This document shows, one piece after another, positions 787 through 46,453 of a DNA stretch of 64,000 bases. Position 1 is the first letter of the stretch; every line of letters begins with the position of its first letter. A program made the translations under genes and the position numbers. This DNA comes from Circinella umbellata (lineage: Eukaryota > Mucoromycota > Mucoromycetes > Mucorales > Lichtheimiaceae): positions 682,001-746,000 of the forward strand of contig JAIWNF010000005.1 of assembly GCA_025093555.1 (NCBI GenBank), in the 5' to 3' direction. The notes beneath the pieces are model-generated. The model saw only the letters and a list, made by a program, of their open reading frames with translations, did no database searches and was not told the DNA's origin.

Positions 787-3700
787 ATCTAATACGTGTT
801 TATGTTATTGTTAACATACTATATAAAACTTACATATCAGACAGAAATGTTGCTTTGTAATCTGAGAGGGTTCTTAGTAGACAGAGCCGGATTGGACTCG
901 TAATCCGTAATGTAAAAAGTCATTTAATGAAAAAATGTGTGTTATTTACTAGATGTCACAACAATAAAGTTATTTTTTTTTCATATAAAAGGTGTTTTAT
1001 AAGATTGTGTAAATAATGGTGGTCGAGATTCTTAAAGAATGTAAAGCATTGGCAATGGGAGGTGTGTTTTTCACAATTTGTTATTTGTGTCATGAAAACA
1101 TAAATGATAATAAACTATGTAAAGCAAACAAAGAAATAAAATTAGTTATTTAAAACGATCTTATTTTATTTTAAAGCCTTTCTCTTTCTTCTCCTTTTTT
1201 TTAAAGCTCTTCCCCCCAAGAAAATGAACTTGAAGAATTAATTACATTACCTCCACCACTTGATACTCTATGAAAATCAATACCTGTATATCTATATATT
1301 AACAATGAAAAGTACCAGGTGTAAAAACACAAGTTTTATTTAATATGAAATAATACAGTCTACGTATGATAAAACGTATGTATCTAAACATGAATTTATA
1401 TAAAATATAATATATGAAGCATATTGTATAGAATTTGATAAGTTATGGTTTAATTATATAATAAAAATTCTTAATATGCTGATTTGATTATATAACAGTA
1501 TGATGATGATAATAAATTTGATAGTGATATTCTGTATATTCAATATGTAGGAAAAGAACAAAACATTTTTTAAAAGAAATTATAGAAATAGATTATAGTA
1601 AAATTTTGGAGCTTTTACCTATAATAAGAGCTGGAGTTTAGATATCAAATATAGAATATGTGTTGTTCCTTGTTTGTTAAAAGACATATAGAAAATTATA
1701 AGAAATACTATTTTCCTTGGTTCAGTGTCTATCTGATGACTTCAATTTCTACTTAACTTAGTAGGCATAATGAACGCGACTCAAAAAAACAAGAGGCTAC
1801 CAAAGGAACTGTACGTATTAGAGCAATAGACATACGTGCAAAATAAGTATAAGAGAGTTGTGGGAAGAAGTGTGTTTGTAGTATTTTTATTAAAGTCATA
1901 TATCATATATATTAATACTTTTTTTATGTCGATTAATTTACGAGGATAATATATTATTTAATTCGGTGTTACCAGTTATAATCGATTTATACTATGATAA
2001 TTATTCTTTCTATATTCTACAACTTAGACAGTACGTAGTACGTACGCGGTATTCTATTCACAAAACGAGGTACATACTCAATAGTTTTCTATGAATATTA
2101 ATTGAGTTACAAAGCTAATTAGAAAAATGACATTGAAGTGAATTACGTAGCACTATATTGTTATTAGTGGTTTTTTGAAAGAACTGTATGAGCTGTACAT
2201 ATTGTTACATAAGATGTTATTTGCTAATTATTTTGTATTGTTATCTTAAACAGTATATTACTTATGCAATAAAAAAAGAGGGGGGGGCTAAAAGTGGGAA
2301 ATCGATTTGTAGTGAAATGAACATTTAGTAAGCTGTAGTATACATCAAGAAATAAGGTTCTCCGGAGAATAATGGGGTTTCTGAAGGAATCGCCTAAATA
2401 GGTAAGTCTATCTAAAGCCAAACTTCTTTAAGCTTTATGATACGATATATATAAGTATGCTAACTAAAAAATGGTACATTGAACATATTTAATCTTGAAG
2501 TATTATTATCAAAAATCAGAATCGAAAAAAGCAGCTTTTATATCTGTTATTGATCACAGCACATCAGTACTATTGACATCTTTGCTTATCATTTGATTTT
2601 CCTGGTGAAGAAATATTGTAACAAATTTCTTATGGTATATAAATACCCAATATAGCTGGTTATATATATCAGTTTGATTAGAAATTATTTTTCCTTTTTC
2701 ATTTTGAAACTAACAGTGAACTCAAAAAACATGTCAAACCCACATAGTAATATAAACCTGTGGAGTGACAATTTAACTGGCTATATAAAAAAATCACATG
2801 AATATTTTTATTTAAACAGCATTTAGGGTAGTAACGTAGAAGTTGTAAATTGTAACTCCTTTAAATTAAGAACATGAACATATGTGGTGTATATCCTAGA
2901 TAACATTTAGTAACTATGTAACGATATTTGTTATTAAAAAATAATACGTAATAAATGACCAATGTATCTTTATCTTTTCAATATGTAACAAATATAATTT
3001 TATTTAAATGACTGGTAACAGTAATCGATTAATTAGTGGGGCAGTATTTCGATTTAAGCATTTCTTGGTACTGTATACACATATCTAATTTTACACAAAT
3101 TTGTTAGCTGATTTTAATAATAATAAAAAAAAACAATAATATACATGTGCTGTCAACAGATCACCGCTTACTCACAGCAAAAATTAAAACAGTGTTATTT
3201 TTCTTCTTAATTGGGATATAAATATATACCAAGGAACAAAAAAAGGGGTAGGAGTGCTTAAAGGATTTTTAAAAAGGAGGGAAATGATAATAAAGGGAGA
3301 CAGAGAGGGAGTTGTTTATAAAAAAACAAATAATATGTTTAAAAAACAGAGGTGTTTATTATTATGATTATTATTTTGGGGGGGATAAGAAGAAAATAGA
3401 AAGGACGATCCAACGTTTACAATAATTGCTTTACGTCGTACAAGAACACATTTTTACAAAAAAAAACCTCATGTTTCCATAGCAAAAAGTCATATATGGA
3501 CTAAATCTATTTTCAATTGTCACAGCAACCAAAAAAAAAATTGCTTTGAGTGGCTCTCTCAAGTCGCTTTCACTCTTTTGATTATCATACACATTCTTTC
3601 TTCCTTTCCTTTAAAACACACACGCACATACATATATTCAAAGTATTATACATATAATACTACCCGACTGCAGCTTTTTACACTCAAAATATAAAAAAAA

Positions 3701-4017
3701 AGACTGTTAATTTTCTGTCCTTTCCTTTAACCTTTTCTTTCCTCCTCCCCCCTCCCTTCCACACCTTTTTTCCCCTTTCTCTTTATTTTTTATTTTTTAT
3801 TTTTTGCACAGCGAGTTGAATAGTAGGACGAAACCTTTTTTTTTTTTTTGACAAGTCTTCATTTTACTGTGCACTACATTCCTTTATTATTATTTTATTA
3901 TTCTCTTTCTACATTGAAGACAACTTCAATTAATTTCACTCCATTCATTATATATATATATATATATTATAATTACTATTATTTTTGTTTTATTTTATTG
4001 ATTTTTTGTAACAATTG
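787..4017. other. AT-rich intergenic DNA; 5' region of the Num1-like gene
   Basis: No convincing gene is visible on either strand. The sequence is mostly A/T with homopolymer runs. From about 3540 to 3790 it becomes rich in C/T tracts (for example 3719-3782). A (TA)n run lies at 3951-3967, just ahead of the Num1-like start codon. This resembles the promoter and 5' leader style of other genes in the window, so 3540-4017 probably holds the promoter; no specific factor site can be named. Confidence 0.6.
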
Positions 4018-7000
4018 ATGACTCCAATCCCAAAACCTTCATTATCAACACCAGCGACATCAGGTCTTACTTCATCCCTTGTGCTTCCAACACCATCCAC
4101 TTCAACTTCAACAAACTCAACTCGACAAGTCGTTGAACGACAGATAGCCGAACACGAAAAATTATTACAAGAGTCCAATAGTGGAATAGGAAAAAACGTA
4201 TTGATCAGACAAATCAAACAACTTAAAGATAAACTCAAAGAAATGGATCATTTACAACAACAACAACAGCAGCAAAAACCCCAGTTACGCCGTCAAGCTT
4301 TGGGATCCACTTCAACATCTATGGATGATACACCTCCAGGAGGTTTAGATAAACTACGTAGTTTAGAACGCGATGTATCAAGCTATCGATCACCTAGAGT
4401 AAGTTTTCTCTATCATATACATATATAATTTAACTATATACCCTTGACCTCTTTAATCTTTTTTTCTCGCTCCCATCCCCTTCTTTTATCCCAATCGCCC
4501 CTTAAAAACTTGGGTCTTTTTTTTTTTACTTTCATACATTATTAATATATATATATATTGGTTCCCCTTATAATAATGTACAATTAGTTGCTTGGTAATC
4601 ATCCGATGCCTAGTCCATCCAATTCAGGTCTTGACTCTTCATCATTATTACCACTTCCTCCACCACCAACTGGTTCAACACCAACGAAACGCCGTTCTAA
4701 AGTACCCAATGCAGATCGTCGCAACACAGATATTGAGTTTGCAACTGAAATCGGTCAGGGATTATTGTTGGAAGTACGAAAAATGCAAGCATTATTACAA
4801 GAAAAAGAGGAACAATTAAATCAACTAGAAATTCAAAAAGCTGATATGGAACGTGCAGCAGAAGCAATGGCAAAACAACTAAGACAACGTGAAGAAAGTG
4901 AAGGTAAATACGCAAAATAAACAAAAAAAAAGCAGTAACAAAAAAAAAGTATACATGGTGAATGATCTTATGAATGATGATTTTCTAACATAAAAATGAG
5001 GGGGTTATTCTTGCATCATGAAACGGTAAATGAATTATGATTATTTTTTGGGGGGTGGGGTTATACTTTATTTTGATCTGTATTTAAAGAACGATTAAAG
5101 GAAGACACGTGGAACCTTGAATTGGCAAAACAAGAGCTTACCATTAGTGTCACCGAACTACAACAAAACTTACACAAGTCAAGTACCGAACAAAACCGAT
5201 TAACGAAACAGGCCAATGATTTACGGTCAGAAATTGAAAAACTTCGTTCAAGTGAGGAGAAATTACAATCGATTGTGGAAACTATGAAACAACGACATGA
5301 ACAGGACATGTCATCCATTCGTCGACACGCTGCTGGTTTACAACGTGAAAAGTTGGAACAAAAAAAACACATTGACACCTTAACGTCTGAATTAGCTATT
5401 GCTAAAGCTCAACAACGAATTGCTAAGCGTAGTTTTTCGGATATACATGATTCGGCAAAAAACAAAAAGACAGACCTACTGGATATAGGGTCTTCTGGAG
5501 ATGGATCGGGAACCGATCATGAAGGACAAAGTTCAAAAGAATCACCACCTGGATCACCCAAACAACAACCTACACGTAATCAACAATTAGAAGTCGAAAC
5601 ACTTAAAACATCTTTGGCACATGCTCATCGTATGGTTTCTAATTTGCGCAGCAATTTACATCGTGAAAAAACCGAGAAATTCGAATTTAAGAAACTCTTG
5701 GCTGAATCACAAGAGACTATCGAACAATTGCAGAATGAACCACGCATGTGGGAGGATGCATCGACACGTAGTGCGGCCGATGTGAAACGATCGCACAAGG
5801 CCAGTGGAGGAAGTGGTAATGGCAAACGTCGAAAGGGTAGTACAAGACGTAAGCGCGTGGGCAGTCGGACACCAAAGGCAGGAGAACAGCAGGAGAATAT
5901 TGACGATATCGAAGAAGTAGTTGATTCATTTACGGATGTAGAAGAAGAGTCGAGCGTTTCTTCTGATGAGGAGGAAATGTTAGAACGTCGTTTGATGCAG
6001 AATGATATTTCTACTGCGGGATTCACGTCATTATCAACGGAATTGGCTTCAACACCAAAGGAAATGACATTGGGTGATCAGTTATCGATGGCCCTGTCAT
6101 CTTCATCACTACCACAGTCTGTACCACCACGTTCATATGTTGACACGGGAACACAGACGGAATTGGAAATTGATAACAGACAAGTTCAAACCGAGACGCC
6201 AGAAGTAAAGAGTACAGAAACCAGAGCAACTTCTCCTATAACCACTGATGCAGCAATCGGAACTATGGCAACTTTCCCTGCAACAACTGATCCAGCAACT
6301 GTAACAACAGAAATTAAGGAAACTTCTTATATAGCGAATGATGAACCAATTGCAGCAACAGTACCGGTAGAACAAGAAAAGAATATCGCAACTACATCAG
6401 AAATCAACAATAATGGCAACATTACAGTTAGAACATCTGAATTACAACGAGTTGATATGCCCAGTATGAGTGCAACACCAGTGGAGCAACGTACTCAACA
6501 TGTTCAAAGCGAATCAGTATCTGTTCCTGTGGATGCTGGAGTTACTGTGGATATAATTCAACCACAACAACCACAACAGTTAGAGGAAGTTGTCAGCAAG
6601 AAAGAAACGGATACAGTTGCTACTCAAACAAATTCCGCTACTATGGTATCGGTTGCAACAGGCTCTGATTCAGCTATCTGGAATGATTCCACACCTACCG
6701 TTGAATCATCAACATCCAGAGCGGGATCTACTGTTCCTGCTGTTGGCACCGCCGTCGCTACCACCGCTACTGCTACTGCTGCGGCTGCTGCGGCCATCGC
6801 TGCTACACAAGACCTTGCTGTCGGTAGTAGTGCACAAACCACAACCGAAGTGTACGGAAATTTAACGAACGCAGCTATCAAAAATGATATCCATCAAGAT
6901 GCAGCACACACCATGACCGCCACCCCCACTTTGGATCATATGTCGCAGCAACAACAATCTATCACAAGGGACATTTCAACTGGAACCTTACCTACAACAT

Positions 7001-9238
7001 CAAATTATGCATCGGATATGTCGAATCAAACATTGGAACCAACAGGAGTTGAAAATAAAATATCTCGAGACGACACGCATGATCAACAACATGTGGATTC
7101 TTCAACAAGTGCTTGGGCAAAGGAAGCTGAACTTGCATTTGATAGTGCACCTTCCTCGCGCTTCAGCAAATCACTGATGGGTCCTGGCGACAAGAGCAAC
7201 AATAATGATACTAACTTTTCTCATGTTTCTTCCGTACAAAAACATGTTTATGATACTGCTACTACACCCGATTCAACAACACACATGACTTCTGCCTTTG
7301 GCGAAGCTCCAACGGCAACGGAGTATTCAGCTCAACCACAATATCAAAATGGATCGATGGAAAGTACAGTTGCTACTGGTGATCAACAATCATCAAGTGT
7401 CGAAGCTATCAGTGGAAATGTGTATAATAATGAAAACGGTGAAAATAAGAAACATAATGTACTCTCTTCCGACTATGGTATATTATCATCACAAGTACCA
7501 AGTATTGCAAAGAATGGAGCATCAAGTGATACAAACAATAACATCATCACCAATAACCACAATAACATGGCTACAGATTCATCGAACGTTAAACATCATG
7601 ATGACACACGTCATGCACCTCAATGGATTGCGAATGGATCATTAGAAGTTCCGTTAAACACTTCTACTTCCACCACTACTGCTATTAACAGCTCAGCAAC
7701 AAATGAGGAGATTGATGGTCAAGAGCCCAAGACATTGACACAAACTGAGGCAGACGCCATGGTTGCACGCGCTGTTGAAGCTGCTCTTAACGCATATCGC
7801 AAGCAAGAGAAAACAGCTACTAGTCATCAAGAAATACGTTCAGTCCATCCTACTGTTGATAATGATGGTCATATTGAAACTTCATCAACTCTTGGTGTAC
7901 CTCTTCCTACGGCCATTGTTGTTGATGATACCAACAATAACAACATGAACACTAGTGAAAATAGTGGTAGTAGTCAAGTATTAGAGGGCCAACCACCAGG
8001 AAGACCTACTAGTCAACCACCTTCTACATTATTATCCAAGGCTGCAGCACGAGCAATTTCTGTATCCAGTCATAGTAAGATTGCACCACTTGAACAACCT
8101 TCTTTTAATAATGAAGAATATGGCACAGCTTATGTCAACCCATATACAATGACTTACACTAGCCGACGCCGAGAGTCAGGTAGTGTTTCAAGTGTATCTA
8201 CTAGCAACACAACAACAGATCGTCGACCTTCCATTACATCCTCGCAATTAGATGCAGCAGCACGTGGAGCTAATGGTATTTCAGATCCAAATGCAATTGC
8301 TTTGATCACTCAAACTATGATTGGTGATTGGTTATATAAATATACCCGTAAGACTGTTGGTAATGGACTTTCAGAACGTCGTCATAAACGATTCTTTTGG
8401 ATTCATCCATATACTCGTACATTGTATTGGAGTGCTTCTGCTCCTGGAGTAGATGGAAGAGAATCAAAAGCAAAGAGCGGTAAGTTTTATCTTTTTATTT
8501 TAAAAAAGAAAATGAATAAAATGACATAATGAAGTGTATACAAGAATTGAAACTTTTGATTCGAAACAAAAACTCATATGTATATAAATATTATTACTCT
8601 TGACATTCAAATACAGCATTTATTGAAGATGTATCTGCCATACCCGATCTTACTCCAAATCCTCCTGGATTACCACAAGTAAGCTTATTGATTCGAACAC
8701 CAGGAAGACAAATCAAGATTACTGCACCCGATACGTCAAGTCATAATGTCTGGTATGAGGTAAAGTATATTTTTTATTATTTCTCTCTTTCCCCCCCCCC
8801 TTTCTCTCCCTTCTTTTTATTTTCCTTTTTCGTATACCGTTCTTTACCAGACGAGAAATTAATTCAAAGCTTTTATACATAAATGTATAATAGTCATTAT
8901 CCTATCTTTTAGCACGTGCAAATGATGGGGATGGAACACCCAAGAAAAGTATTGATCGACGCGATATAACTGAATCTGTATCCACAAGTGCTGTCTCTAT
9001 TCTTAAAAAGCCAAGTTTTCAACGATTACGACCTGTTCGTTCCATTAGTTCTATAGCTGGAAGTACGAGAAGTATATCAAATCGTAGTCGAATTGAAGAT
9101 GATGATGATGAAGGACTTGAGGACGTAAGAATGTGTTGTAATGGAAAACATCATGTTTCAAAACTTGAAAAAGATAATCACCAGCATCCCTCTCCTCATT
9201 ATCGTACTCATACTAAAAGATCACAACTTTCTTCATAA
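4018..9238 (+). CDS. NUM1: Num1/ApsA-type cortical anchor with C-terminal PH domain
   Basis: Five exons join in frame: 4018-4398, 4588-4903, 5090-8479, 8617-8759 and 8894-9238, giving 1,524 residues. All introns are GT-AG. The N-terminal third has coiled-coil stretches (about residues 40-85, 160-200 and 235-320). A long Ser/Thr/Gln/Asn-rich low-complexity middle follows. A pleckstrin-homology domain of the Num1/ApsA/Mcp5 type lies at about 1309-1410, with a start around IGDWLYKYTRK, the basic RRHKRFFW, and an end at WYESLSYLLARAND. In yeasts and Aspergillus this family sits at the cell cortex through the PH domain, anchors dynein and mitochondria, and positions nuclei; that role is inferred here. 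The last intron was set by continuing the PH helix: the acceptor at 8892-8893 keeps SLSYLLA in frame, whereas the downstream AG at 8911 does not. The ATG at 4018 is the first in its frame. The tail after the PH domain is Ser/Arg-rich and ends at 9238. Confidence 0.9.
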
Positions 9239-45117: not shown

Positions 45118-45643
45118 TTTGATAATAATAATAATAATAATAGTGGTACATAATAATAATAAAGGTAGTTATGTAAATATAAAAATGTCTTTAACTTTTA
45201 TACGTTACAATGCATCACTATGCCTCTTTTTATTTTTGTTTCAGAAACCTGATGATAATTATTCTTGATTCCCAGTTGTAATACCATATACATCTATATG
45301 ATAGAATGATGTTTGATATTTTGTATAATAGTAATTATCAAGTCGTTTATTACTGTGTATTACGCATGACGCGGTGTAGTTTAATAGATTGCTGATAGAT
45401 TCAAGCTAAATAAAGAGTAAAAACTCGATTACATTTTAATAGGGCTAAATTCCCTCAATAAACAGATAAAAAAAAAATAGAAAACGTTTACGTATATACT
45501 TTTTTTTTTCGGTTCTATCTATTTCTTTCATAAACTTTAAAAGCAGAATGTTCAAATCCAAGGTTGTCTCTGTCAATTCCAAGCTTTTTTATTATTTGAA
45601 AAATGGGTACGTATACGTAGAAGAAAAAAATGTAGCGTAGGTA

Positions 45644-46168
45644 CAGGATTTTGCATTCATTTCCGGACACAAACTTCAATTTTTTCGCTTATAAGAGTAA
45701 CTTTTTTCGCTTATGATGTTGATTTTTTTCGCTTATGATATACTATATTTTTCGCTTATGATGGCGGTGTTTTTCGCTTATGATATACTATATTTTTCGC
45801 TTATGATGGCATTAATTTTCGCTTGTAATACCTATATAATTTCTGACTTATGAGGTCTAAGAGATTTACATAAATGATAGGGGGAGTTTTTCGCGACTAA
45901 TACCAATTTTTCTTTAATATTTGCTGCATCTGCTTTTACATGATTAACCTAGTATCATATATCATAAGTGAAAATTAATGCTATCATAAGCGAAAAACAC
46001 CGACATCATAAGCGAAAAATATAGCATATCATAAGCGAAAAACACCGTCATCATAAGCGAAAAATATAGTATATCATAAGCGAAAAAAACCAACATCATA
46101 AGCGAAAAAAATTACTCTTATAAGCGAAAAAATTGAAGGTTGTGTCCGGAAATGAATGCAAATTCCTG
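45644..46168. mobile_element. 525-bp TA-flanked MITE with array-like inverted arms
   Basis: The ends CAGGATTTTGCATTCATTTC (left) and the reverse complement at the right (CAGGAATTTGCATTCATTTC) are nearly identical, and each is flanked by TA (45642-45643 and 46169-46170), as expected for Tc1/mariner-type insertion. The inverted arms (45644-45830 and 45960-46168) are almost entirely repeats of TTTTTCGCTTATGAT spaced about 22-23 bp apart: seven copies on the left and eight on the right, alternating two spacer types. The right arm has exactly one extra unit. The central ~130 bases are unique and non-coding. It is non-autonomous; the motif copies could be transposase-binding sites. The arms are still alike enough that it looks young. 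Confidence 0.85.
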
Positions 46169-46453
46169 TATACCTTATATGAAACAGTAGAAAGAAAAAA
46201 AGATAGTGAGGAATAGGTTTAAAATTAAAAAAAAAAAAAACCTACGTAATAGTTTTATATTTACATACGTAAAAGTATTAAAAAATTCATTGGAAGGTTT
46301 GAAAACAGTTGAAGGAACTGTTCTTTTAGGCTGCTTGATACTTGTAGAAAGGTACATAACACTTATTGAAAAGTTTTCCACTGGGGCTGTACTATGTATA
46401 TATATATATATATATATTGTCGTGCCCAATTTGCTATTGCTTTGTTTTTTCCA

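Follow-up and report, generated by a model that had tools for sequence, protein, structure and literature searches.

A putative gene-less, foldback-like MITE of the IS630/Tc1/mariner type with arms built from arrays of a 15-bp motif

The window, a 64,000-nucleotide stretch of Circinella umbellata DNA, contains a 525-bp element that is best explained as a gene-less, foldback-like MITE of the IS630/Tc1/mariner type, with arms made of arrays of a 15-bp motif that is probably the binding site of the family's proteins. We assign this reading a probability of roughly 70%. The likely source of the MITE is a two-gene element of the IS630/Tc1 type that carries degenerate arrays of the same motif, TTTTTCGCTTATGAT. 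What appears to be new here is the presence of foldback-type arrays in an IS630/Tc1-type family, alongside a likely two-gene source.

We read the layout of the element directly from the window, where it spans positions 45644 to 46168 (Table 1). Between flanking TA dinucleotides lie, in order, a 29-bp end, seven units, a central region, eight units, and the inverted 29-bp end, and the near-identical ends start with CAGGA. The repeat length alternates between 22 and 23 bp; TRF reported periods of 22, 23, and 45 bp, the last corresponding to a pair of units. The left-arm count of seven excludes an eighth "unit" with four mismatches, which looser chaining picks up inside the central region. Inner spacers alternate between an ATRCTATA type and a GNCGGTG type, and the outermost and innermost spacers are unlike either. 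Because the two arms share their spacer order from the outside inwards, they are true inverted copies, one unit apart. Direct reading thus confirms the original prediction of a MITE with intact TA flanks, CAGGA ends, and arms of seven and eight units at a spacing of about 22 to 23 bp with two alternating spacers, except that the spacers at the array edges differ.

Table 1. Features of the window MITE (window positions) and genes of its proposed two-gene source (L039 positions)
Feature	Position	Strand	Remarks
TA flank, left	45642-45643	.	sequence reading
Left terminal inverted repeat CAGGATTTTGCATTCATTTCCGGACACAA	45644-45672	+	sequence reading; 29 bp
Left array, 7 units of TTTTTCGCTTATGAT	45681-45829	+	starts 45681, 45703, 45725, 45748, 45770, 45793, 45815
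Central region	45854-45949	+	common to family copies, the damaged C124 element, and the interrupted L050 copy
Right array, 8 units	45961-46131	-	starts (+ coordinates) 45961, 45983, 46005, 46028, 46050, 46073, 46095, 46117
Right terminal inverted repeat	46140-46168	-	1 mismatch to the left one
TA flank, right	46169-46170	.	sequence reading
Gene 1	L039 3299-4812	+	DDE-type relative
Gene 2	L039 5278-6711	-	IS630/Tc1-type transposase

The element is short, non-coding, bounded by inverted ends, and multicopy, as expected for a MITE. Its long inverted arms (45642-45830 and 45982-46170; 189 nt each, 93% complementary), with their internal tandem units of 22/23 bp, also give it the form of a foldback element. 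When up to four mismatches were allowed, the longest run of units in the left half was eight, compared with at most two in 300 dinucleotide shuffles, and exact unit pairs occurred 52 times across the genome, compared with none for a reversed-pattern control. A tRNA scan of the window returned none, and one open reading frame of the window had a fungal ribosomal protein L4 as its best match.

We searched the 50.8-Mb assembly (210 contigs) for relatives of the arms and ends. The end CAGGATTTTGCATTCATTTCCGGACACAA, with up to three mismatches, matched 73 times, whereas the reversed-pattern control gave no match, and 40 distinct related places were scored out of 55 candidates. The search foreseen in the original prediction therefore recovered a multicopy family with relatives rather than a single copy. 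TA precedes 55 of the 63 family ends examined (TA frequency, 0.098), in agreement with the TA insertion of IS630-Tc1-mariner elements, and it stands on both sides of 20 of the 24 two-ended elements, the exceptions being C68a, C68b, C135, and C167. The flanks of C68a and C68b look alike. The central regions of 16 other copies are 79 to 99% identical to that of the window copy, and because five of 136 copy pairs have identical central regions, some copies are recent. Two copies, C189a and C189b, have flanks that are reverse complements of each other and represent an inverted duplication of a single locus (G000:C189:696027-698814; L065 and L066).

Empty sites were sought with the joined flanks of four of the 16 copies (C178, C112a, C137, and C35). 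For C178, 23 of 25 rows cross the junction and the other two are its own flanks; thus, this copy lies in a repeat that is present elsewhere without the MITE. Joined-flank searches gave no clear empty site for C112a, C137, or C35 (one of them scored 40 of 61 candidates). The C112a and C137 copies lie at the edges of repeats. The C35 copy (L077, G000:C35:297409-297910) has inserted within another palindromic repeat, between its halves.

The proposed source is represented by a 5.6-kb element, L039 (positions 2553 to 8178), with two convergent genes (Table 1) and ends that match those of the MITE at 26 of 29 bases. Its terminal regions, inverted relative to each other and each about 0.7 kb long, are 91% identical and contain degenerate unit arrays, with 15 and 13 units at a loose threshold at which shuffles reach 11 and 8, and with four units in each arm at up to four mismatches, versus two and one in shuffles. 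A second element, L042, is about 97% identical to L039 over 4.9 kb; the changes between them, 4 synonymous and 13 non-synonymous in gene 1 and 1 and 5, respectively, in gene 2, are too few for an informative dN/dS. Convergent pairs of gene 1 and gene 2 also occur at C85, C165, C64, and C32. Because the degenerate TTTTTCGCTTATGAT arrays are already present in the two-gene source, multiple sites would be older than the MITE, and the apparent novelty of the MITE relative to that source is its more uniform units and the loss of genes.

Gene 2 of L039 matches DDE_3 at an E value of 2.2e-22 and the IS630 model NF033545 at 130.7 bits (cut-off, 100). Its triad positions, FIDE, YDNA, and NPIE, correspond by reading to DD34E. 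A search of PDB sequences with gene 2 returned Sleeping Beauty as the best match at an E value of 0.05, which fails the default threshold. A transposase of the DD(30s)E/D type with an HTH, as characterizes the superfamily, is thus found at the proposed source, and the MITE, itself gene-less, is tied to it through its ends, its motif, and the C124 element. A foldback element of the P or Mutator lineage would be expected to show a P- or Mutator-type transposase and a 7- to 10-bp target duplication; instead, we found TA flanks and, at the proposed source, an IS630-type gene.

The original prediction anticipated a relative with CAGGA ends and a DDE transposase. L039 is such a relative, with the qualification that its ends differ from those of the MITE at 3 of 29 positions, and our genome search found no element combining a MITE-type end with a transposase gene. 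Direct similarity between the MITE centre and L039 was considered and dropped, as the scores (47, with shuffles reaching 48, and 43, with shuffles reaching 47, in a second comparison) fall within the shuffle range. The link between the two goes through C124 (L080), a damaged element that joins a MITE-type array and centre to gene 2. C124 has 13 units with up to four mismatches, and its centre scores 91 against the MITE centre (best of 300 shuffles, 37) and 48 against L039 (shuffles, 37). Its gene 2, about 1 kb further in, is 65% identical over residues 1 to 232 with one stop, and its outer end has been lost and replaced by other sequence. Two further derivatives were found, an 821-bp foldback with L039-type ends (L043, 8149 to 8969) and a derivative of about 90 bp consisting of an end, two units, and an inverted end with TA on both sides (L044:642-735), suggesting that the foldback form arises repeatedly.

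A different partner is conceivable within the same genome. A separate, compact Tc1-like family, with elements of about 1.7 kb and the ends CAGTRTTTTAACTTGGTTTTCGGACC, is present at C1, C2, C57, C147, and L050:2730-4155. If this family had moved the MITE, the likeness to the 5.6-kb element would reflect older shared ancestry only. In the 1.7-kb family, seven full-length gene matches are 89 to 91% identical to the L050 protein, and six of these contain no stop; paired ends lie 1695 to 1718 bp apart at four places. Its ends loosely resemble those of the MITE, and one copy sits within the MITE copy at L050. However, its ends and 3' subterminal sequence (L079) lack the TTTTTCGCTTATGAT array, and the L050 arrangement looks like a nested insertion: the right end adjoins the MITE centre, and a left end could not be found at this site. 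We consider mobilization by this family unlikely, though a serious alternative. L050 had itself been a candidate autonomous partner, with MITE ends flanking a transposase, and was rejected as a nested 1.7-kb element; its transposase gene carries other ends elsewhere in the genome. Inside the same interrupted MITE copy, a sequence containing runs of CGCTTCGCTTCGG (L050:819-985) resembles a further insertion.

The arrays themselves vary among copies in a regular way. Seventeen of the 24 two-ended elements were laid out unit by unit (C13, C135, C142s, C167, C43L, C68b, and C189b were left out), and in all 17 the spacer order is constant from the outside inwards while whole units are missing or repeated. 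Units per arm range from one to eight across copies. These whole-unit differences fit either slippage or unequal exchange; the unequal exchange put forward in the original prediction accounts for the pattern, and slippage would produce the same one. Of these 17 copies, the window copy alone has the spacer variant ATACTATA, and it has it in each arm, which suggests exchange between the arms of one copy. In 14 of the 17 copies, the two arms resembled each other more than they did those of other copies, by small margins, and we dropped the idea of strong homogenization within copies, ATACTATA being the one clear variant.

Within the repeats, conservation is higher in the motif than in the spacers. 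Mean pairwise identity over 131 MITE units was 0.86 for the motif and 0.45 for the spacers, with corresponding values of 0.72 and 0.36 in C124 and 0.74 and 0.49 in L039, in a comparison biased by the units having been picked by motif; for L039 the difference is weak, as 679 of 20,000 permutations were as large. From this pattern we infer that the units are binding sites for transposition proteins, in line with the transposase sites of the original prediction. The arrays might otherwise be a by-product, slippage-prone tandem repeats carried along without any binding function. The range of unit numbers agrees with this, as do the TA flanks of few-unit copies (C142s and L044), which indicate that long arrays are unnecessary for having moved. 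Such passive carriage would nonetheless leave unexplained why the motif is retained while spacers vary (in the MITE and C124, and to a weak degree in L039), and why it is present in diverged elements with different spacers, and we regard it as quite improbable.

The predicted fold of the element strand has an energy of -287 kcal/mol, versus -96.7 +/- 6.1 for 100 shuffles (z, -31.5). The strand could therefore fold into a near-complete hairpin, much as originally predicted, and the folding result reaches no further. That the hairpin serves as a small-RNA source silencing the family would agree with this fold, which is, however, expected of any foldback element, and it is the least probable of the alternatives.

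We return to the two-gene source, which combines gene 2, seemingly a complete transposase gene, with a triad-deficient gene 1 ending in YFxCxCxxC. Gene 1 matches DDE_3 at an E value of 0.0033, under the curated cut-off, and the IS630 model at 30.3 bits, under the cut-off of 100. Homologues occur in C. umbellata, Circinella minor, and Phascolomyces articulosus, together with two further entries. We aligned 10 proteins (P0001 to P0010), two of which (P0003 and P0010) do not reach the first acidic position. All eight proteins that cover that position have T, G, C, S, or N there, and C32, read separately, has G; the second D is retained in seven of seven, and the third position is D in six of six as well as in C64, and N in C32. 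The C-terminal YFxCxCxxC is present in the five proteins that reach it. Wherever these positions are covered, the gene 1 members, which come from two Mucorales genera, are thus missing both the first D and the E; the entries outnumber independent lineages, since the three from P. articulosus are near copies. The gene 1 product is predicted to have lost the ability to cut, and because it is conserved between genera despite the D and E loss, it may act as a partner or regulator that does not cut. There is a parallel from another superfamily in Paramecium, where a family of catalytically inactive transposases assists PiggyMac (PMC8354472).

These parts suggest how the family might work. The gene 1 and gene 2 proteins would attach through their HTH domains to the end and to the units of the arrays and, once bound, would pair the two arms. 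The DD34E protein encoded by gene 2 would then cut at the TA ends, while the gene 1 protein would bind or regulate without cutting. The MITE, having kept the sites and not the genes, would be mobilized in trans by the two-gene family. Slippage or unequal exchange would add and remove units, and variants would sometimes spread between both arms of a single copy. A more specific version, which we offer tentatively and hold to be possible rather than probable, is that the arrays are loading platforms for the active DD34E transposase and a dedicated, conserved, dead DDE paralogue. This paralogue, marked by a C-terminal cysteine motif of its own, would coat the 22/23-bp arrays, pair the arms, and set activity, and the MITEs would be parasitic on the pair of proteins.

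Two properties make the family useful for further work. Copies with so wide a range of units per arm within one genome form a natural dose series for site number versus mobility. Since the proposed source also carries a conserved DDE-type gene 1 that is missing the first D and the E, it would allow a test of whether a Tc1-type transposase works with a dead subunit as its partner.

Tc1 transposons have been described in Mucorales, including Circinella minor, as Tc1-MP1 and Tc1-OP1; unlike the elements here, they are not credited with a two-gene or array structure in the available text (PMC9977792). More broadly, searches of the open-licence literature turned up no case of foldback-type arrays together with a two-gene DDE pairing in an IS630/Tc1-type family. 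Foldback elements with tandem arrays are treated there chiefly in the context of P and Mutator (PMC4079207, PMC3573991), whereas the family described here inserts at TA and is of the IS630/Tc1 type. Tetris/DAIBAM of Drosophila virilis is a non-autonomous foldback element with end repeats of about 220 bp and with ends common to a MITE (PMC4079207). It resembles the window MITE in having tandem repeats within inverted ends and no transposase of its own. It differs in that its authors assign it to Mutator, with 8- to 10-bp duplications, and found no transposase-bearing relative (PMC4079207).

Galileo/Foldback elements, members of the P superfamily in Drosophila, have long inverted ends in which tandem repeat number varies between copies and between ends, and these repeats have been proposed as secondary transposase sites (PMC3573991). 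The likeness lies in the very long inverted ends and the variable-number internal tandem repeats. The superfamily and the target duplications differ, and F-group repeat units measure about 210 bp, whereas the window MITE has 22/23-bp units, TA flanks, and associated genes of the IS630/Tc1 type. Sleeping Beauty, whose Tc1-type transposase inserts at TA and which needs all four internal sites (PMC7827188), shares with the MITE repeated binding sites within inverted ends (IR/DR), those of the MITE being putative. It has two sites per end and a single transposase gene, compared with up to eight units per array in the MITE and more in its relatives. Also comparable are the ITm elements of Paramecium (Tennessee, Sardine, Anchois, and others), IS630-Tc1-mariner elements that carry extra genes beside the DDE transposase, among them ORF2, which is present in all and has no assigned function (PMC5405496). 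ORF2 is not described in the available text of that source as a DDE relative, whereas gene 1 here, a probable DDE-fold paralogue, has diverged from the transposase beside which it lies.
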